Source: Daphnia pulex
Taxonomy: Eukaryota > Arthropoda > Branchiopoda > Diplostraca > Daphniidae
DNA: 64,000 bases
Direction: 5' to 3'
NCBI RefSeq assembly: GCF_021134715.1
Contig: NC_060027.1
Location: 3,596,001-3,660,000 of the forward strand
Of the stretch, positions 1-14,172 are shown one piece after another. Position 1 is the first letter of the stretch. Each line of letters begins with the position of its first letter. The position numbers and the translations under genes are program-made. The notes beneath the pieces were generated by a model. The model was not told the origin of the DNA, did no database searches, and saw nothing but the letters and a program-made list of their open reading frames with translations.

Positions 1-18
1 ATTTTTGGTATTCCGTAG

Positions 19-2082
19 AAACAGTTAACGCCGGAAAAAACAGAGTCCATAAATTTATGCTTGACACTGCTTCGAAACATTCTGCACATTCCGGAACGCC
101 CGTCGGTACGCCCTCCGCACATGTTGCTGTCATCCCCTCGGAGTGTCATTGATCACACGTCGGACAACTCGCAGCAAAGTCAAATTGTGTGTAACCTCCT
201 TGCTCAAGGATTGGGACCGCTTCTCCTGAATTTATTAGTCTGCCCACAGAGGGTAACGTCGCTCAGTTTGTTTTCAGCAACTCGTATTAAAGTTTGGGTG
301 TTACTTAGGAAGAATTGGTGGGGACAATCACACAGGTGATCGCTGTCCTTTTTAAATGTCGATCTGCCGAAACTATACGTAACCGATTAGGCGCCGGCCG
401 CACTGTGATGGATAGCGTTATCTCTGTATTATTCGAGGAAGACGACGACGACGCTGTTTCCAAGCGTCTAGAAATATTTGTCATGGATTTTATGCCAAAA
501 GGCAAGCGATGTAATTTTTTAAAAATATGTTGCCATTTAACACCTATTTCTGTAGGTTACAACACACTTGTAGGCACCTTACATGACCAATTGCTTCAAC
601 ACGACTTGCCAATTGATGAAGCCCAATTTTTCTGGCTCATCACCTATTTTGGTGGTTTCGCACCACTTCTGAAACTGGACATAAATCACGTCAAAGATGT
701 GATGAATATTGAAATTCTATCTTACTTAACATGGGGAGTCATTCATGAAACCGAAATTTTGGACAAAAACTATTTCCGTGAAGTGAACCTAGAATCCTCT
801 GTACGTCGATTGCATCGAGGTGTCACGGCCATCCGACAATTTTTGCAGGTCTTGGAGATGTATTCCAAAGGTGTCTGTTGGACAAGTCAGCAAGTTGAGA
901 GCGATGATTCGCAAGGTTGTGAAACGTACATTCGTCAACTTCACAGTTTCTTGCCAGTAATGAAGGATCTCCACCGAGCTTTTTTAGTACTCTTGCGGCA
1001 ATATAATCCCAACGTTCAGAATCGACAGTACCTCCGTGATGTAATTGCATCAAATCACCTTCTACTGGTTACCCTTGAGCGAGCCGCTGGTGTTCCGGCA
1101 TACGGTGGGCGTAGTGTTGATTTAAAAGAACATCTGAAACAGTTCTGCACTCCCACGATCGTGGCTAAATACGCGATCGCTCTTAGTGATTTTAGAACCA
1201 ATGACATTGTCGTTAATCATTCCATTTTTCAGTTTTTGCATCATGTCAATGGTGATCTCGGTAGAATTGACCTTTTGTTAGACCCAGTTATTGTGCGTCC
1301 ATTCGTCAAAATATGTGAGGAACAATTTAAAGTAAGTTTTTTAAAAACCCTTGCTTTTTAGTTTCCCTTAATTTTGTTCTAACTTATTTAGATTTGCGAA
1401 ACATGGCATAGCATGATTCAATGTGTGGTGCAGACGTTTATACGTAATCAATTGAGTCGCGGTCATCAGAGGACGGGCGCAACGAGTAGATTGTCAGAGT
1501 CAGACCAAGTGAACCCATCATCATCAGCGGAGCCTCATCATGTCGCTAGTAATCCCTATCCCGTCTTTCGTCAACCACGAACAAATATTGAAACACTCCT
1601 CGTTCAACTGAAGAATTCAGGTTTATTTTTTTTAAACACATCTTAACTTATATTTTTTCAACCAATTATTTTTTATTATTTATCAAGGATTCCAGAGACA
1701 GCTGGACTGGATTCAATATTCTTTATTGACGACTTGCTCAGCTCAACTGGGTACTTATGATGGCCAGAATTTCTGTAATCCCATTGCTTGTCTGAGTCGC
1801 AGAAAGAAAATATCTTGTCCTATAGTTCCGTGGACCGAAGATGAGGCATCCGCTCTCCGCTCGGAAATTTTCGTTTGTCTTTTGCAGCAGTTAGGTCTTC
1901 TGCCATCGGCCTTTCATGACCAGGGGTTTTATCCTTGTATTCCTTACAATTGGTCTCCAGACACTGTGTTTAGAGTAGCTCTCATTTTCAGTCCCATTGA
2001 GCAAACAATGGTGGATTTTGATCTTTCCCTCGTCATCAACAACACAACTGAGCAGCAGAGAAATAATCCCTGCCCACCTTGA
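19..2082 (+). CDS. tim: timeless (circadian TIM) paralog, 3' portion; 5' exons lie left of the window
   Basis: Exons read 19-252, 309-1331, 1392-1620 and 1688-2082 (TGA), with GT-AG introns of 56-67 bp and consistent phases. The first exon carries the TIMELESS signature LLRNILHIPE and ends in CPQR. The second carries an acidic run (EEDDDD), then FFWLITYF, ILSYLTW, VTAIRQFLQ, LLRQYNP, SNHLLLVTLE and HHVNGDLGRIDLLLDP. The last exon holds the WTEDEAS...LLQQLGLLP...WSPDTVFR block found near the C-terminal part of insect TIM. The order matches Drosophila TIM (circadian type), not TIMEOUT. TIM binds PERIOD/CRY and acts in the cytoplasm and nucleus of clock cells. The long variable linker between the PER-binding halves is much shorter than in the fly. 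The frame is open throughout, but the 5' part is not visible, so an intact gene is likely rather than proven. The same region recurs as damaged copies at 6-10 kb. Confidence 0.85.
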
Positions 2083-3657
2083 AGTAATCTACAATACTTT
2101 CGAAAAAGTAAAAAGTATCGCGTTAAGGCAAAAGTTGTTGATTCAATATAATACTATGCCGATAGAAGATATATTTTTGAAAGAAGCAAAACTTTGTGGT
2201 GATTATGGTTGTATATATAGTAGTCTTATTTCCATCAGATTATATAGCAAATATCTGTCAACAGAATACTAAATAAGTTCATCATAAAACTGTGTTGGCG
2301 TCCAAAATCTTCTGTTGTATCTGTGACTGTGTTTGTGGCTAATGGCTATATATAAGCTATACATTTTCATATACAGTGATGCCACTGTCTATCAATTTAC
2401 TACTTAATCATTTTCTCCAGCTGTCGAATAGCCGAAATATAAATGCACACTGAAAAGTGTAATCCTCGCTATGAAAAGGTGAAACATTCTATGTGCAGTT
2501 AAAAACTGATGACAAAAAAACTCATTCACGACTTCGTGCTTTCGTGGTCTTGGATACGTGGATGTTATCAATACGGTATTATAACCAACCTTGAAAATGC
2601 AATATAGAATTTTGTATAAAAGCTATTAATTATTGTGCAGGATCTAGAGCCAATTTTAATTTGGAGTTCATTATTCATTATTCTATTTCTATAAAAGCTC
2701 CTCTTGCCACTGTCGGGCTTCTTACATTTTTTTAAATTCCCACATTTGGCTTCTAAGAGGGTCCTGATCCTGGATTATCTCATTGTGGTGGTTATCTGGT
2801 TTCGATCTAAAAGTAATTATCTGGAGGTTTCGGACAAATTTTTTTTCTATTATATATTGACTGCGGTAGAGGGCTTAGTGTAACTTGTTCAGAACAATTT
2901 TACTACAATTTTATACTAAATTAATCCCGATCCGTTCAGTGGACGCGGGCGAGAGAACTTCTTTTGTCGTTCGTTTTTAAGCGGTCTGGATTTTAGAGGT
3001 CGATATAATTTTTTCTATCGATTTCTAAGAAAAAGTGTCGTCTGCTTTCAATAAGTTTCAAAATTGAGAAAATAGTTAGAAGTAGACTAGTTAGAAGACT
3101 ACAAACACTTCAAAATTTAGCTGAAGGTAAAAATACAATTTGAAATTATTAAATGTATATTGCCTTAGTATTTTCATGTTTACAATCTCTCTGGAAAGCA
3201 ATCATGTTGGTATATGCCAAAACAAAATAATGGTAAATACCTACAGAATGTTCTTTTTAGTAATCTCAATTGTGAAACAAGGTTGTTTGTAACCAAATCA
3301 ACCCAGTGTTGTTCCTGCAGGAAAAATTGAAAGTTTATGTGAAAAACAGTTATGCTGTTGATAGAAAACATGATAAATTATAAATTTTCATTTTAGTTTT
3401 TTTGTGCTTCATTATTAACATTGTAGTTATCATTGTAGTTTCTGCAGTGTGAAAACATTTCCTTGCTTGTAATTGTTAATATTATGATTTCCTGGAAGAA
3501 ACAGAAATGGAATTATTTGTATAGACAAACAAACTATGTATGTTTCACAATTTTGATTCACCTCCTCGTTAATCTTAGAAAAGCCCACAAAAAAATCTTT
3601 TATACTATTTCATAACTACTCTCAAAAGATGTTTGTATTCAACAAATATTCGGGCTT

Positions 3658-3907: not shown

Positions 3908-5049
3908 GTTCGGTATTTCGTTCTTTTGAAGTTCCTAGCTCCTCCATTTCTTAAAAAAACACACGTTTCTTAGTGTTTAAATGTTTACTTTTGCCAATTT
4001 TTGATGGATTTAAAATTTAAATTAAAATTATCGATGTATTCCATAAACATGTCAGCCAGGTTTATAGACTTTGCGTATCTAGGAAAGAAGTGTTTTAAAC
4101 GGTTTTAAAGTTATACGGCCCTTGCAAGTTGCAATTCAATTCGGAGTAGTCTGACGGATGAAGTGAAATTCAGTTGCATGTTGAAGATGAAATTAAAGTC
4201 TAGAGAGGAAATGAACGCAGCAAGCGGAGCGTTCGTGCTTCAGCCAAATGTCTGCACTTTTCTTCGTTTCCTTTTTAGTGAGGTTAATCGCATCGTGATC
4301 GCATCAACCGTAGCAGATTTGTGTTTATTGAGGATATCGAGCCAATCGAGGACCATAGATTTTTGTACAGGTGTGCTTTCAGGTCCGTCATCTCTGTCAT
4401 GTCCGGTCATGTCAGTGTTAACCTCATCCACCAAAGGGATTTTTTCCTAATTGAGGTTGGATTTTTGTTGGTCAAAGTGGGCTTTCTTGCCCATCATCAT
4501 CATGCTTTTTTGTTTGTTTTTTTCTTTACATTCCACAACGTTTTCAATCACTCACTCTCCAAATCGACCGCTAGTGTTGTTCTATGTAGCCATTTCTTAT
4601 TATGGTTATTCCTCCCTCTCCCCCTCTTATCCAATTAAAGGTACACCCGCTGCGAGGTGTTTTCCTGTCGGGGAAAACTGGTTTCTACCTAAACGCTTGT
4701 TTGTATTTTTTTTAATTGTTTTGTTGTTTTAATTTTTCACCAAGGAGCGGTATTTCGGTTCGCCGATGTTGCTAGCTCCACCATTTCTAAAAAACACGTT
4801 TATTGGTGTTGTAGTCTTTTTAATTCTGCTAATTTTTGACGGATTTAAATAAAAAAATATCGATGTTTTTCATCTGCATGTCAGCTAGGTTTGTGGACTT
4901 TGGAGTTTGGAACTAGGAATGAAATGTTTTAAAAGTTACGGCCCTTGCAATTCGATTCGCAGTAGTCTGACGGATGAAGTGAAATTCAATTGCACGTTGA
5001 AGATGAAATTAAAGTCTAGAGAGGAAATGAACGCAGCAAGCGGGGCGTA
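3908..5049 (+). repeat. pair of diverged ~300-bp direct repeats about 0.83 kb apart
   Basis: The block at roughly 3908-4232 recurs at roughly 4745-5049. Shared landmarks in the same order are GGTATTTCG, an AGCTCCNCCATTTCT segment, TTTTTGANGGATTTAAA, ATCGATG, CATGTCAGC(C/T)AGGTTT, TACGGCCCTTGCAA and GTAGTCTGACGGATGAAGTG, ending in CTAGAGAGGAAATGAACGCAG. The layout resembles a tandem duplication, or short terminal repeats bracketing about 500 bp of unrelated DNA. I see no transposase, tRNA primer site or polypurine tract to support an LTR element. Confidence 0.7.
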
Positions 5050-5883
5050 GCGTTCCGGTTGCTTGGCGCGCGTTGGCACACTACTTTAGTCTGATTAAGT
5101 AGTCTTTTTCTATGTATATTTTATTCCTAACTATGTAGCTTCTTAATTTGTTTTTTGGATGGCATCCTCATACTCGACTCGACTAACAAGATTCACCAAT
5201 CGAGGGGGAGCAAATTCGTATTGCGTCGCCACAGGGATAGAATTATTCTAAAAATATTACAATAAAGTTAATGTTTCCGTACCGTCTTTGATTCCTTGAG
5301 CGTTTGTGTATAACCTGTATGACTTCTATGTCTATTCTTCATAACCCCTAACCCTTAACTTGTCTGAGCCGTTGACTTCTCAGAGTCGTGTGATTGCATA
5401 CCTACCATTTGTCCATAACCGTTCACTCGGTAATTCAAAGTGGTCTAATTAAGCCCAGGTGCGTAGCAAATGAAGTAAGAGCGTGTAACAAAATCGGACA
5501 CCACTCGAAACGCCTTTCCTTTTTGTATCGTAAAATTTTACGGCTTATTTTTACGTGTATTGAGTATTTAAGTTTTACTTGGGAGACCGGATGTAGGATG
5601 TTCCCCCTTTTTACTGATGAGGTTCTTTCCGCATTAGATTCTCAAGCCCAAAAAAATTCAATTTTGATCGAGAAATTTGATAACGGAAGAAAAGGAAATG
5701 ATGGACGAATAGCGCTCGCTTCGTATAATCTAGTCACGACAGAGCCTGACAGAGCGCTCAGTTGCTCTTAACAGTATTTGCTGGCGCTCAAATGTGATTA
5801 AAGTAGTCAATTTCCAATGCAAGCCTGCGAGAATTTGGAAAATCAAAACATGTTTCTAGTCATTTTTACTATAGAACTTTTAT

Positions 5884-5940
5884 CACGTGGCATATGGTTC
5901 GCGTATAAAAGGCAACACATCCAGTACCGCAGCATCACTC
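5884..5940 (+). promoter_or_regulatory. E-box plus TATA core promoter of timeless copy B
   Basis: A perfect palindromic E-box CACGTG lies at 5884-5889, with a second E-box-like CATATG at 5891-5896. TATAAAA follows at 5904-5910, and an initiator-like ATCACTC lies near 5933-5939. About 100 bp further on is the ATG at 6041, which opens a TIM-like N-terminus (MDWMF). CACGTG is the canonical CLOCK/CYCLE binding site and drives timeless in insects. The spacing is what one expects of a functional arthropod core promoter, even though the gene behind it is damaged. Confidence 0.7.
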
Positions 5941-6040
5941 TTCTCTTTGAGACAGCCCTGAAATCATGTAGCTTTTCTTTGCAGTGATCCAACACCGGTA
6001 CAGACGATTAGTATTTTTGTTTGTACATCCATTTTCCAAC

Positions 6041-7865
6041 ATGGATTGGATGTTTCCGAGTGAAGGCGCTCCATCTAGCGTCTTCATTTCCTTGGAGACA
6101 TGTTACACCAACGACCAACGTTCGGGTGAGTTTCTTTTCAAGTAGTTAATTAGTAATCACATAGGAATTTTTTTAGTAAATTTCATTTTTAAATATGTGT
6201 CTGTCTTACAATTATAAAGACATTGATGGTGACGGCATTTGCCGAGCGCCATCGAACTGTGAATCTTGGTTGGGCAATACGATGACGTTTGAGCGTTTGA
6301 CTTGACAAGACTTGAATCATTTTTTTTTCTTCGTTTCAGGTGGTTGGTTGGCATAACTACGCTCATTCGCTGCTTCACTTTTGTAGAAACCTCCGGTCAA
6401 CGAATCCATGCATCTGATATCATCTGCGAATTGAGACAGCATCTTTACAGGGCTAAAGAATCCTTCCTCGACGCCAGGAGCACTAGGTCTATTATCGCTC
6501 ACGTTGAAATTCTTTTGGAGCATGTACGTATTTTGACACATGATTGAATTTCATTCGCTGTCATACTTATCTAATGCATTTTTCCTTATTCCGCAGCAAC
6601 CGTTAACGCCGGAAGAAACTGAGTCCGTAAATTTTTGTTTGGCACTTCTTCGAAATATTCTGCACATTCCGGAGCGCCCGTCCGGTACGCCTTCCGCACA
6701 TGTTGCTGTCATCCCCTCGGAGTGTCATTGATCACACGTCGGACAACACTCAGCAAAATCAAATCGTCTGTAACCCCTTTGCACAAGGATTGGGACCGCT
6801 TCTTCTAAAGTTATTGGATTGTCCACAGAGGGTATAACCATTAGTTTTTTCAAATTTTTTTTTAGCGCTCCGTGTTAACATTGATATGATGAAACTTAGG
6901 ACGAATGGCTGGGGACGATCACAAAGATGATTTCTGTGGAGTCGCCAACTTCACAGTTAATTGTCAGCAATGCGAGATCTTCGTCAAGCTTTTTGCAATT
7001 GGTTCGTCTCGACAGCACACGGGTAAACATAAGTGGACCTGGGTCTTCTCACGAATATCAACGATGGTCTTATCTACTACGTGGTTCTCTTCACGCAATG
7101 AGAGACCTCCGTCAACTGTTCGTGCTCCTACTGCGTCAGTTCAATCCAAAGTTTCACTGTAGGCGTCTTCTGTGTGACATCATCACAGGAAACCACCTTC
7201 TTTTGACTACACTTAAGCAAGCCGATGAGTTCCCTGCTAGCGTCCCACGTTTTGATATGATGACTGAGCATTTGAGCCAATTTTGCACAAAAACAATTTT
7301 GGCTCGATATGGAAGCGCTCTATCAGATTTTAGGACGAATGGGTCATTCTTCAACGACTCTATCTTCACAATTTTGCTTCATGTTAAAAATGATCTAGGC
7401 AAAATTGACCTTCTATTACATCCTGTTGTTTTGCGTCCATTTGTTAAAATTTGGGAGGAGGAATTCGACGTAAGTTTTTCACCTTTTACAACACATTTTT
7501 TATAATTAAAGTTGATAATTAAGTATGATTACTTTATTTTTAGATTTGCGACAATTGGCACACTCTGATAGAATGTGTTTTGCAGACATTTTGGAATAAC
7601 CATCAGAGTGGCAATTACATTATTGACTCTTATCCCTGGAATTCAACGACTGATGGATTGGTTGATGAAGAGAACTTGACTCTGGCGAAAGCCAGACATC
7701 CTGCTGGCAATAATAATCCTTCATTTAAAGTATTTCATACTAATATGCAGTCTGTTGTTCATAAGCTGAAAAATTCAGGTTTTGTTTTTTTAAATATTTT
7801 CAAACTATTATTTAACATCTTGCATTTTTCCACAGGATTCCAAAAACAGCTTATTTGGATCTAGG
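6041..7865 (+). pseudogene. tim: timeless copy B, truncated and frameshifted
   Basis: The start exon 6041-6125 begins MDWMFPSEG, like the TIM N-terminus, and ends at a GT donor. The next two coding exons, which survive in the opposite-strand copy at 9.3-9.5 kb, are missing. Later exons carry ELRQHLYRAKESFLDARST, LTPEETESVNFCLALLRNIL, then 6904-7470 (LLLRQFNP to HVKNDLGKIDLLLHP), 7544-7778 and a short 7835-7865 piece ending in TAG. Disabling changes are a 4-bp insertion near 6407, an extra C near 6680 that shifts the frame after NILHIPERPS, and a stop soon after FQKQLIWI. Exon 6904-7470 has also lost about 140 codons relative to the copy at 309-1331, joined in frame. The promoter appears intact, so the locus may still be transcribed. 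Confidence 0.8.
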
Positions 7866-9275
7866 AAAATTTGATTGAAAGTTTGATTCAGTGTGTCCTG
7901 CAGACTTTTAGACGTAGTCAACAGAATCGCGGTCATCTGAAATCGGGCAATAATGGTAAATTTCCGGATCAAGAAAGCCCGTCACCAATGGGGACCAATC
8001 CAGAAGATAGTGTTCATTTTCCTAGATATTTTCTGGAAACACACGGTTAAAAACGCAAAGGTGAAAAACTTACGTCGAAACTCTCCTCCCAAATTTTAAC
8101 AAATGGACGCAAAACAACAGGATGTAATAGAAGGTCAATTTTGCCTAGATCATTTTTAACATGAAGCAAAATTGTAAAGATAGAGTCGTTGAAGAATGAC
8201 CCATTCGTCCTAAAATCTGATAGAGCGCTTCCATATCGAGCCAAAATTGTTTTTGTGCAAAATTGGCTCAAATGCTCAGTCATCATATCAAAACGTGGGA
8301 CGCTAGCAGGGAAATCATCGGCTTGCTTAAGTGTAGTCAAAAGAAGGTGGTTTCCTGTGATGATGTCACAAAGAAGACGCCTACAGTGAAACTTTGGATT
8401 GAACTGACGCAGTAGGAGCACGAACAGTTGACGGAGGTCTCTCATTGCGTGAAGAGAACCACGTAGTAGTTAAGACCATCGTTGATATTCGTGAGAAGAC
8501 CCAGGTCCACTTATGTTTACCCGTGTGCTGTCGAGACGAACCAATTGCAAAAAGCTTGACGAAGATCTCGCATTGCTGACAATTAACTGTGAAGTTGGCG
8601 ACTCCACAGAAATCATCTTTGTGATCGTCCCCAGCCATTCGTCCTAAGTTTCATCATATCAATGTTAACACGGAGCGCTAAAAAAAAAAATTTGAAAAAA
8701 CTAATGGTTATACCCTCTGTGGACAATCCAATAACTTTAGAAGAAGCGGTCCCAATCCTTGTGCAAAGGGGTTACAGACGATTTGATTTTGCTGAGTGTT
8801 GTCCGACGTGTGATCAATGACACTCCGAGGGGATGACAGCAACATGTGCGGAAGGCGTACCGGACGGGCGCTCCGGAATGTGCAGAATATTTCGAAGAAG
8901 TGCCAAACAAAAATTTACGGACTCAGTTTCTTCCGGCGTTAACGGTTGCTGCGGAATAAGGAAAAATGCATTAGATAAGTATGACAGCGAATGAAATTCA
9001 ATCATGTGTCGAAAACCGTACATGCTCTGATGCTCCAAAAGAATTTCAACGTGAGCGATAATAGCTCTAGTGCTCCTGGCGTCGAGGAAGGATTCTTTAG
9101 CCCTGTAAAGATGCTGTCTCAATTCGCAGATGATATCAGATGCATTCGTTGACCGGAGGTTTCTACAAAAGTGAAGCAGCGAATGAGCGTAGTTATGCCA
9201 ACCAACCACCTGAAACGAAGAAAACAAAAATGATTCAAGTCTTGATAAGTCAAACGCTCAAACGTCATCGTATTG
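6275..9275. repeat. near-perfect 1.2-kb inverted repeat (two timeless copies head to head)
   Basis: The left arm 6275-7496 matches the reverse complement of the right arm 8057-9275 almost base for base; I notice only scattered single changes and a 4-bp indel. The loop is about 560 bp (7497-8056). The outer limits fall inside timeless intron sequence (CAATACGATGACG). The inner limits fall just after a shared splice donor (GACGTAAGT). Arms this similar imply a recent inverted duplication or ongoing gene conversion. A transcript crossing both arms would form a dsRNA stem of about 1.2 kb. Confidence 0.93.
7868..8049 (+). pseudogene. stray timeless exon fragment in the inverted-repeat loop
   Basis: The frame reads SLIQCVLQTFRRSQQNRGH followed by a hydrophilic tail to a TAA at about 8047-8049. 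It is a second, diverged version of the exon found at 1392-1620 (HSMIQCVVQTFIRNQLSRGH) and, in another version, at 7544-7778. It abuts the truncated last exon of copy B, so it looks like debris from a third duplication joined at the breakpoint rather than part of a working gene. Confidence 0.65.
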
Positions 9276-9541
9276 TCCTTTTTGTTGAAGAACACTAGTC
9301 GTCTGCAACTTACTTGACTGCTAAACGAAAAATAGCGTGCTCGTTCTCTTAACAACCAATCAGCGAGGGTTTCAGGTCCTGCAACAGTCAAATTAAAAAT
9401 GTAAGTCTAATTGTTATCTGAATTCGTTTTGAAATATTAGCCATTACCTTATTGATAATTCAAGGAAGCCAAGACCAAGTCGACGGGAATGATTTGTAGC
9501 ATCGTCAGACAGCAACTGCGTTACAAGATCTTCGAGGTTGG
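8057..9541 (-). pseudogene. tim: timeless copy C on the opposite strand, no start exon and no 3' exons
   Basis: Reading down the minus strand, exons are about 9541-9448 (NLEDLVTQLLSDDATNHSRR), about 9365-9307 (TLADWLLRERARYFSFSSQ, GT donor), about 9212-9020 (VVGWHNYAHSLLHFCRNLRS...YRAKESFLDARST), then the NILHIPE exon and the LLLRQFNP-to-GKIDLLLHP exon. It keeps two N-terminal exons absent from copy B and lacks the 4-bp insertion at 6407. It shares with B the extra C after NILHIPERPS and the internal deletion. No MDWMF-type start exon and no promoter are recognisable upstream, and the copy ends at the inner edge of the inverted repeat. I read it as a pseudogene, but its exons show how the 5' half of a complete family member is organised. 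Confidence 0.75.
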
Positions 9542-9780
9542 CTAGTCAAGTTTTAAGAACAGATTATGTTCAACGACACAGCGGCTTAACAATTCTTTGA
9601 TGTAGACGATTCCGACGAAGAAGAAGCCAAGTTCCTCAATAGGTACGTCGATCTATTTTTTTTTTTAATAGTTGCAATTAGCTTTCTAACTTTTTAAGTT
9701 GTATTAAACAGTTACGTTGTCAGGCACGAACCTGCTGAACTTATCTTCGTTCTTAAATGATTCATAGGTAATTTTATCGT

Positions 9781-9879
9781 TTACGGCGGGTCAAATCGGT
9801 CCCGTATACTTTCGGCAGACCGACCTTTGAAAAGGACAGAGATCACCTGTGTGATCATCCCCATCAGCAGCCATTCGTC
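9781..9879 (-). pseudogene. isolated timeless exon fragment
   Basis: On the minus strand an AG acceptor is followed by DEWLLMGMITQVISVLFKGR and SAESIRDRF, then a stop. This matches the start of the exon at 309 (EELVGTITQVIAVLFKCRSAETIRNRL) and retains the FKGRSAE part that copies B and C have lost. It is a remnant of a further timeless copy. Nothing coding for TIM continues beyond it. Confidence 0.7.
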
Positions 9880-10244
9880 CTGAGTTTCATTACATCCGGA
9901 AAATACTACTGCTCTGGTACTATTTCATAAGTTAGAAAGTTTATATTCTTACAAATGGTGTTTGCATCCACAGGAACAATTTCAGCTTATAGCGGTTTGC
10001 TGTCACTCTGTGTGTGTGTTTATATAGCGTCGAATTTTTTTATTCCTTACAATATCCTTGCTGAAAATCCGGAGCAAGACATCGAGGTAAATAATGAACT
10101 TATTTTAGAAAATTTTTATTCAAAAATTCAAAGAATACAGTTGAGATTGAACTGAAAGTTTGGAGATTACTTGAAAGTTATCAATGACATTATGTGGGAA
10201 TTCTTATCAAAACATTCTCTTTTACGGTTGTTTCAAAACGTATC
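9880..10244. repeat. spacer holding copy 2 of the ~110-bp dispersed block (10137-10241)
   Basis: Positions 10137-10241 repeat the block at 3658-3771 with small indels and end four bases before the stop codon of the minus-strand coiled-coil gene. This is probably that gene's 3' UTR. The rest (9880-10136) is AT-rich and shows no supportable gene. Confidence 0.6.
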
Positions 10245-11042
10245 TTAATTCTGGTTGTTTGCGTGGTCGTCTGCTTTAGGATCATCATGGAAGAGATTGT
10301 CAGCTTTTTCTCGGAGATGCGAAGCCTTTTCTTCTATAAAAAACCCAGAGTGCTCCAGTAATTGGGTCCATGTCTTTGGAGGTACTCTAGTTAACACTCC
10401 ATGTTTGACAAACCATTCCTCTAAAGTTTCATTAATTCCAACCGGATCTTCTTTATCTTCCGGTCTTGACAATTCAGATGGTGCTTCCTCTTTGGCATGT
10501 CTGACAGCTTGCTGCAATGTTCCCAGAGCTTCAGCCAGCGCTGCAGCTTGTTCAGTGGCAAGCGCTTCAGCTTGTTGTCGGGCAGTGGCTGCAGACTGTA
10601 CCACTTCATTTTTCTCATCGGTTAATTTCAATAGCAGTTCCTTTTGATTGCGAGACTCTTCCGTCAAAGTGTTGATATTTTCTTTGCATGAGTTCAATTC
10701 TCGTTCCAATTCCAGAATCTTTTTGTCTGCTTCCATCACCGCGGATTTTTCTTGATTACATTGAGCTTTCGAGATGGTTAACTCGTTTTGTGCTTCATCC
10801 AAAAGTCTGGACTTTTCGTCGGTTTCCGTTTTAGCGACGTTTACCGCATCCTCAAAATGCGCTTTTGAGCAGGTTAATTCGAAATTTACGTCTCCCTGTC
10901 CACACTGTTCTCCGGTTTCAGGAATGTTGACTTTTCCTTTGTCTTCTGCTCTGAGACGTTTGCGAGTAAGGCGTTCCAATAGCCAAGCACTGCCACATAG
11001 AAAGATTGTTACGACAGTGAATTCAACGACTGAAGTAAACAT
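10245..11042 (-). CDS. membrane-anchored coiled-coil protein, 265 aa, intronless
   Basis: This is a single open frame from ATG at 11042 to TAA at 10245. Residues about 5-22 form a hydrophobic segment (VVEFTVVTIFLCGSAWLL) followed by basic RLTRKRLR, which fits a signal anchor. Residues about 60-195 are rich in E/K/Q/A/L heptads and should form a long coiled coil. The C-terminal 70 residues are more globular (LEEWFVKHGVLTRVPPKTW). A TATA box sits about 65 bp upstream of the start codon on the same strand. I do not recognise a named family, and function is unknown. Having no introns in an intron-dense region may indicate a retrocopy or a lineage-specific gene. Its 3' flank is duplicated at 3658-3771. 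Confidence 0.7.
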   Translation of the reverse strand: MFTSVVEFTVVTIFLCGSAWLLERLTRKRLRAEDKGKVNIPETGEQCGQGDVNFELTCSKAHFEDAVNVAKTETDEKSRLLDEAQNELTISKAQCNQEKSAVMEADKKILELERELNSCKENINTLTEESRNQKELLLKLTDEKNEVVQSAATARQQAEALATEQAAALAEALGTLQQAVRHAKEEAPSELSRPEDKEDPVGINETLEEWFVKHGVLTRVPPKTWTQLLEHSGFFIEEKASHLREKADNLFHDDPKADDHANNQN

Positions 11043-11107
11043 TTTGGTTTCTGAAGTTTTTAGTTGATTGTGCTCAACACTATGCCCTATTGTGGTTTCA
11101 CGTTGCC

Positions 11108-11114
11108 TCTTTAT
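11108..11114 (-). promoter_or_regulatory. TATA box of the coiled-coil gene
   Basis: The minus strand reads TATAAAG at 11114-11108, about 65 bp before the ATG at 11042, with no intervening ATG. The position suits a short 5' UTR of some 35-40 bases. Confidence 0.5.
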
Positions 11115-11883
11115 AGGTTCTAGGCTGTCGGCTTGAAGAGCAAGTATTCAGTGCGCAATATTTTTATGTATATTTAATATTTAGAAATCTTCAATTTCAT
11201 AATTATTTATTTAGTTAAATTCAGAATTTTTTTTCACACATATTTCAAAAAGAAAATTAAAATTTAAATAATTTATGAGCACTTTGTGTTAATTTTAGTA
11301 ATGCTCACTATCAGAATGGCAAGGTGTGTTCCCTGCTGGCCGTAATTGCATCATAGTTATTTTACCCTTTTTCCAAATTTGTTAGAATTTTACTTAAATG
11401 TTAAATATTTTCTTTAAGAATTTTCTTTAAGAATTAGGCAATCAAAATTAAATTTTTTTATTTGGATCACAACGTAATCACGTAGGTTCTTGGGTAGAAA
11501 ACGAGCAGAGCAATAATAAGAAAAAACATTTATTGATTCAACACCGAATATTAAGTAAAAAATCATACGCCACGCCCACTACATGTTATTTCGTTAAATT
11601 CGTACGGCCATATCTTACGTCAACACGGAAATGCAGTAAGGATAATCGAACCCCGTAGAGCAGCACAACCCAATAAAAGTCAAGTCCAACCAGCTGTTTC
11701 GCCTGGGAATTCTTAAGAAGCACGAGATGTCCGATTGGTCGTGTCAATCTTTGAATACCTTAAACGCATGAAAAAGATATATTCGATAGAAATGGTTTCA
11801 TCGACGATGAAAGACGCTAAAGCCATAGCAGTCTTTTGCCACCCTTTCAAGGCAACACTTTGTTTCGCTCGTACAAAGCAAAG
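11115..11883. other. intergenic, AT-rich
   Basis: This segment lies between divergently transcribed genes. It is strongly AT-rich at 11160-11460, with poly-A/T runs. No gene, RNA or repeat is recognised. It should contain the upstream promoter of the secreted-protein gene at 11884, but I see no convincing TATA box near it. Confidence 0.4.
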
Positions 11884-13324: not shown

Positions 13325-14172
13325 GTAGAAATCATGGCCTACTATAGTCACGGCCCATCATCGTACGCTTCTGTGTGGGACCAATTTTGGGTTCCCTGCC
13401 CCTTCCCTGTTGCCATAGTACATAGCCAGAGGGTCGTAAGTATCGGTTTTTGTTCCACATTTCCGCAGATTCTGTGTCTGGCTTGCATAGTGCTATGGTC
13501 AGAGTCAACTGAAAAAAACCATTGACAGTCGAATGGTTAAAGCGGTAGATTCCCACTAGAGTGGTATTAGGTTCAAATCTATGCAAGTCATAATCAATTT
13601 TTCATAATTTTTCCTTGTTTTTTCTTTATTTTTAAAGCGAATTAGATGGAATGCCTAGATTGTGAAAAAATGAGAGTTTTTTCACATTATTTTCAACAAA
13701 ATCTGAATTTGCTTTTTTTTCTAAGTCCTTGCCAAAGAAAACAAATTCAGATTTTGTTTTAAAAAATGTGAAAAAACTCGCATTTTTTACACAATCTAGG
13801 CATTCCATCTAATTCGCTTTAAAAATATAGAAAAAACAAGGAAAAATTATGAAAAATTGATTGTGCCTTGCGTAGATTTGAACCTAACACCTCACTTGTG
13901 GGAATCCGCCGCTATACCCACTAGACTGTCCTTCAATTGCTTTCTATCGACTCTGACCATGGCTGCATGCAAGCCAGACACACAGGCATGGCGACTTAAG
14001 CCAAAAAATCCCAAAGGGTGGAAAGAATCTGCGGAAATGTGGAAGAAAAACCGATACTTACGACCCTCTGGCTATGTACTATGGCAACAGGAAAGGGGCA
14101 GGGAACCCAAAATTGGTCCCACACAGAAGCGTACGATGATGGGCCGTGACTATAGTAGGCCATGGTAGAAAT
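13325..14172. mobile_element. foldback (fully palindromic) MITE with 8-bp target duplication
   Basis: The element spans 13333-14164 and is flanked on both sides by GTAGAAAT (13325-13332 and 14165-14172). It starts CATGGCCTACTATAGTCACG and ends with the exact reverse complement. The terminal ~120 bp of each arm are nearly identical. The rest of the arms also pair, except for a ~40-bp segment present only in the right arm (about 13993-14032) and an unpaired centre near 13715-13735. There is no transposase. An 8-bp duplication is typical of hAT-family transposases, so this is probably a non-autonomous hAT-type foldback. Homology search is needed for the family name. Confidence 0.9.
13866..13935 (-). 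other. tRNA-like segment with A-box/B-box-like motifs inside the foldback element
   Basis: On the minus strand TAGTGGGTATAGCGG (A-box-like) is followed about 25 bp later by AGGTTCAAATC (B-box-like), as in a tRNA or tRNA-derived SINE head. A diverged mirror copy lies in the left arm on the plus strand (GGTTAAAGCGG ... AGGTTCAAATC, about 13530-13575). The acceptor stem does not close convincingly, so this is not called a functional tRNA. Confidence 0.4.

Follow-up and report, generated by a model that had tools for sequence, protein, structure and literature searches.

In Drosophila, hairpin-RNA (hpRNA) loci can lie near the genes they target, as Dsim-hp58 does by CG17385 and hp-pncr009 among the 825-Oak genes, and some hpRNAs of Drosophila simulans were born beside their target through partial duplication (PMC10317233). 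The locus described here in Daphnia pulex, consisting of a timeless gene (D) and its inverted partial copy (D'), is similar in that an inverted partial gene copy lies among its paralogs and contains 21-mers matching them perfectly. However, the Drosophila loci are described with siRNAs and a dcr-2-dependent rise or repression, and concern testis genes (PMC10317233), while D/D' involves crustacean clock-gene paralogs and is known from sequence alone.

The timeless family is expanded in D. pulex, with eight paralogs cited (Tilden et al., as cited in PMC4991082). The genome analysed here likewise holds several timeless copies, although a profile search placed the timeless C-terminal domain at 16 sites, all above the Pfam cut-off and more than the eight cited, and D/D' differs from that family in being a broken inverted pair. 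One of the 16 sites, on contig C8, is probably timeout. On contig C10 (3.48-3.63 Mb), four very similar timeless copies (L046-L049) lie within ~140 kb, and the single pair compared, L046 and L047, has 9354 21-mers in common over 10 kb. Inverted partial duplications and pseudogenes occur in tandem gene arrays, and D/D' resembles them in its common lesions, copy decay, and local rearrangements, with nothing essential differing. Among the literature matches listed, we recognised no title on a timeless hairpin or on Daphnia hpRNAs, which is not proof of absence, and in PMC5887150 Daphnia appears only in the reference list.

The timeless array and its inverted repeat

The window, i.e., the whole 64,000-nt stretch analysed, covers positions 3,596,001-3,660,000 of NC_060027.1 (contig C11 in our labels). 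BLAST on this contig found four same-strand timeless genes (A, B, C, and D), followed by the inverted copy D' (Table 1). Exons 1-6 of tim-C are open, exon 1 beginning 915 bp upstream of the window and exon 6 spanning 309-1331. Exons 1-5 of tim-A are also open, as are the parts of tim-B that were read (exon 1, the exon-6 region barring an apparent intron, and the C-terminal domain). The B-type fragments between C and D appear to be debris of another B-type copy. Since B-like and other fragments sit both there and beside D', the array is plainly rearranging. An intergenic stretch of the window (3911-5242) has counterparts upstream of A (~ -16.3 to -15.6 kb) and C (~ -2.6 to -2.0 kb), and the duplicated unit therefore takes in flanking DNA.

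A preceding sequence-only reading of this DNA, made without database searches, had proposed two nearly identical timeless arms in opposite orientation, and both the identity of the gene and the geometry are borne out. The exon-6 frame of D (6900-7502) matches Drosophila TIM (8dd7_B) with an E-value of 1.1e-28, and exon 6 of tim-C matches it far better (6.4e-52) than the human timeless homolog 7pfo_K (6.2e-11). A frame in arm 2 (8817-9257) matches Pfam TIMELESS at 27.4 bits (cut-off 25), while frames 6900-7502 and 8050-8469 matched no Pfam family. By these similarities, the repeat is assigned to timeless of the Drosophila type.

In the best local alignment, the arms are 97.6% identical with gap columns counted: of 1208 aligned columns, 1194 match and 14 are substitutions, and four gaps of 1, 4, 8, and 2 bases add 15 gap columns. 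In the two longest stretches, matching is uninterrupted for 320 and 218 bp. A mechanical inverted-repeat search recovered pieces of 632, 346, and 116 nt at 98-99% complementarity and a further 90-nt piece at 98%. The arms and loop are thus placed nearly as had been proposed, except that arm 1 ends at 7486 instead of 7496 (10 bp too far) and that the loop is 570 bp long, not 560. The sequence-only reading overlooked two points: the arm-2 side extends to ~9595 with exons 2-3, and D combines two paralog types in one chimeric gene. A repeat of this kind is far more than chance would give, judging by 16 other 10-kb stretches of the genome (160 kb), picked for bearing or adjoining timeless genes and hence not random, none of which has an inverted repeat of at least 60 nt within 3 kb.

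Table 1. Features of the timeless array and of the D/D' locus (window coordinates unless stated otherwise; percentages are identities)
Feature	Position	Strand	Details
tim-A	~ -14.8 to -11.1 kb relative to window start	same as B, C, D	BLAST
tim-B	-9.2 to -5.7 kb relative to window start	same as A, C, D	BLAST
tim-C	-1.4 to 2.1 kb relative to window start (in window 1..2100)	+	BLAST
Putative tim-B-type debris	2492..3193	+	2492-2669 at 90.6%, 3030-3193 at 68% to 5' part of tim-B
D	5.5 to ~8.05 kb in window	+	BLAST
D promoter with exon 1	5508..6189	+	~70% to C, 68% to A
CACGTG	5884..5889	+	only in D among 13 timeless genes with tested upstream regions
TATAAA	5904..5909	+	aligns with TATAAA of C and A
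Exon 1 of D	6041..6126	+	begins MDWMFPSEGAPSS...
Arm 1	6275..7486	+	D exons 4 and 5 and the shortened exon 6, without exons 2-3; exon 5 has one base more than in C
B-like tract of D	7004..7860	+	89% to B overall, 98-99% over 7004-7203
Loop	7487..8056	+	remainder of D, including A-like exon-7 fragment (7883-8008)
D'	~9595 down to 8057	-	BLAST
Arm 2 (D')	8057..9275	-	inverted copy; private 4-bp loss, 8-bp gain, TAA change
Continuation of D'	9279..9595	-	exons 2-3 (~80% to A and C), each with a lesion; missing from D
Extra timeless fragment	9586..9889	-	around exon 5/6 boundary; 69% to A; 71% to C over 9744-9885
Change polarised to D	6487-6488		
Changes polarised to D'	7073, 7172, 7229, 7367, 7461-7463		4-bp loss, 8-bp gain, TAA change (7073), single changes (7172, 7229, 7367), triple change (7461-7463)

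A chimeric gene, its lesions, and the age of its copy

D is the fourth gene of the array and a chimera, with a promoter and exons 1, 4, and 5 of the A/C type and a B-like tract beginning sharply at 7004. The stretch 6320-6937, which includes exons 4-5, is 79% identical to C and 77% to A. Past the first 200 bp of the B-like tract, identity to B falls from 94% to 73% (100-column windows), compared to ~60% for C and A, and the exon after exon 6 is left as an A-like fragment at 74%. Exon 6 of D (6900 to ~7469) is ~450 nt shorter than that of C and holds an open frame of 201 codons. Over 7005-7472, the codons of D and B differ by 11 silent and 9 replacement changes, plus one gapped codon. Replacement sites are about three times as numerous as silent sites, so this pattern points to coding constraint during much of the time since D and B separated, and says nothing about a hairpin.

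Compared to C and A, both arms carry an additional base in exon 5, and both have the shortened exon 6; most simply, therefore, the gene was broken before it was duplicated. With the further lesions private to D', neither D nor D' retains an intact reading frame as a working timeless gene, just as the sequence-only reading had stated. Eight differences between the arms can be polarised by A, B, or C, and seven of them fall on D' (sign test, 0.07), which is only suggestive of further decay in arm 2. The paralogs disagree over two of the seven: C has the D' base at 7229 while A and B agree with D, and at 7367 A and C both have the D' base, the polarity being set by B only. Excluding both, five of the six polarised changes are on D'. 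Differences outside the exons (6304-6305, 6325, 6529-6530, 6534, and 6855) were left out of the polarising. In exon 6, the arms show five differences, and D has the B state at each of them. That more changes lie on D' may reflect maintenance of arm 1, but conversion from B at a later time would have the same effect.

At the mutation rates reported for D. pulex (2.30-4.53e-9; PMC12926508), 14 substitutions in 1208 columns correspond to a separation of ~1.3-2.5 million generations, a figure that becomes lower if clustered changes are single events and higher if conversion renewed the arms. Simple youth of the arms, a possibility also raised beforehand, fits these data best.

Promoter region and hairpin competence

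The CACGTG and TATA motifs described ahead of a start exon at 6041 are present, with TATAAA lying 137 bp before the ATG in D, compared to 150 bp in C, 153 bp in A, and 168 bp in B. When the D, C, and A promoters are aligned, the region downstream of TATAAA is well conserved, but CACGTG is absent from A and C. Nor does it occur in the 1.5 kb ahead of any of the 12 other timeless genes tested; the test comprised the 13 genes with a first exon found, leaving out L012, L042, and L043, which have no recognisable exon 1. A clock promoter as a feature of the timeless family was thus ruled out. The upstream 1.5 kb of 8 of the 13 genes contains the looser CACGTT/AACGTG (C, D, L013, L050, and L046-L049), at differing places. 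Given 24 CACGTG in 224 kb, one would fall within 160 bp by chance in ~1.7% of cases, and the window itself is not enriched (5 observed against 9.8 expected from base composition). The clock-type control that had been read from this E-box, which is private to D, is accordingly unsupported.

The arms are well able to pair. For 6275-9275, the predicted RNA fold has an energy of -2421 kcal/mol, compared to -762 to -806 kcal/mol for three mononucleotide shuffles, and pairs 1198 of 1212 arm-1 bases with arm 2; such a strong predicted fold follows from the complementarity of the arms and is no evidence of use. Perfect duplex is formed by 958 of 1192 arm-1 21-mers, of which 161 match B, 47 match C, and 28 match A, and none occurs in ten other loci tested (a set without L047-L049, which are closely related to L046). 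The earlier claim that the arms can fold into timeless dsRNA matching the paralogs therefore stands as a prediction. Its choice of target, the gene at 19-2082 (tim-C), fares less well: the homology is real, but B matches better, which rules out C as the main target, and A and C have 111 21-mers in common even though neither belongs to a hairpin. B shares none with either.

No AATAAA starts on the plus strand between 5262 and 11671 (6.4 kb), an interval longer than any other without this signal in the window, where 59 signals occur at a mean spacing of 1085. The loop is thus free of this signal, as had been noted, yet it contains an ATTAAA at 7505, with another at 9392. The TATA box and start region resembling those of A and C, the 201-codon frame, and the long stretch without AATAAA are compatible with a hairpin transcript that is used.

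As to the machinery, two Argonautes and three Dicers are reported for D. pulex (PMC2685406), and fed dsRNA works in Daphnia melanica (PMC4597761). Our profile search found Dicer dimerisation domains at five places in the genome, all above cut-off, and 35 Piwi matches counted exon by exon, 32 of them above cut-off.

Readings of the locus

D/D' is probably a pseudogene that was recently duplicated in inverted orientation and is now decaying, i.e., ordinary gene-array debris, because the arms share the frameshift and exon-6 shortening, most polarisable private changes lie on D', and substitutions between the arms are few. The anatomy of the locus, its shared and private lesions, and the chimeric make-up of D are seen directly, whereas we infer the order of events, and the lack of function, as follows. 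The 5' half of an A/C-type gene would have been joined to a B-type 3' half, giving rise to the chimeric fourth gene D, which then lost its reading frame. Part of it would recently have been duplicated and inverted just downstream as D', leaving both copies broken, with D' taking most of the polarisable changes. Should the surviving TATA promoter of D still be active, its read-through RNA would form a 1.2-kb hairpin that could yield siRNAs matching the neighbour B.

This last step leads to the unlikely reading of D/D' as a newborn crustacean hpRNA gene, in which Dicer would cut a read-through RNA from the D promoter into siRNAs that repress the neighbouring timeless paralogs, tim-B above all and C and A to a lesser degree. 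In its layout the locus does look like a newborn hpRNA, whose transcription and dicing are hypothetical. The perfect-duplex 21-mers matching B and absent from the ten other loci, the two long perfect runs, the retained TATA box, the lack of AATAAA, the Dicer and Piwi domains in the genome together with the reported Argonautes and Dicers (PMC2685406), and the precedent of D. simulans hpRNAs arising beside their target (PMC10317233) are all consistent with it. However, the 21-mers that A and C have in common by descent indicate that homology to paralogs needs no selection. The 14 substitutions and four gaps each leave the arms unlike, with no paired changes, although differences so few and so young would hardly show whether pairing is kept. 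Further, the ATTAAA within the loop would argue against read-through, and splicing of the arm-1 introns would leave bulges. Overall, we see nothing in the letters themselves that points to selection for a hairpin RNA. If the reading were true, endogenous RNAi would have been born within, and would act on, a clock-gene array, and siRNAs from it would show a tandem array giving birth to a crustacean hairpin silencer that touches the clock. If no siRNAs are made, the locus would be a clear case of a hairpin-shaped locus wrongly flagged by target homology alone, which misleads because array neighbours can have 21-mers in common anyway. Far more improbable is a clock-driven version, in which CLOCK/CYCLE at 5884 would make the hairpin RNA rhythmic and add a small-RNA loop to the clock. 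The CACGTG does lie 20 bp ahead of the TATA box, but it is missing from the 12 other upstream regions tested and from the aligned A and C promoters and is not enriched in the window. In D. pulex microarrays, moreover, no canonical clock gene (four of the eight timeless paralogs included) was rhythmic under stringent criteria, although timeless-b, -e, -f, and -g scored as rhythmic when the period limit was relaxed (PMC4991082).

Gene conversion, between the arms or with B, may have kept older arms alike, a possible if rather improbable reading. The D-B identity that is highest over 7004-7203 and lower beyond has the form expected of a conversion tract, and D agrees with B wherever the arms differ in exon 6. 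Conversion is nonetheless not needed for the arm identity, and one genome cannot separate it from youth; the readings overlap, and conversion with B or between the arms may accompany the young duplication of a pseudogene. Highly complementary inverted repeats of D. simulans have been misassembled from short reads (PMC10292708), which would make an assembly artefact conceivable here. The arms, however, differ by substitutions and by 8-bp and 4-bp gaps, and not just in single-base runs. A fold-back copy is very unlikely, since the arm-2 side continues into timeless exons 2-3, which D lacks.

Other repeats occur elsewhere in the window. The segment 10219-10400, mostly inside a 300-aa minus-strand frame (10245-11147) with no Pfam match, is repeated at 91-92% in four other places, all on C11, and weaker, longer matches (68-79%) are also found on C11, with one on contig C6. 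At 13333-14164 lies an 832-bp palindromic element of nested inverted repeats (arms of 141 and 147 nt), probably representing a fold-back or MITE-like repeat family: the 40 of 88 candidates that were scored include at least five more copies of full length (90-97%), along with many fragments, on other contigs.
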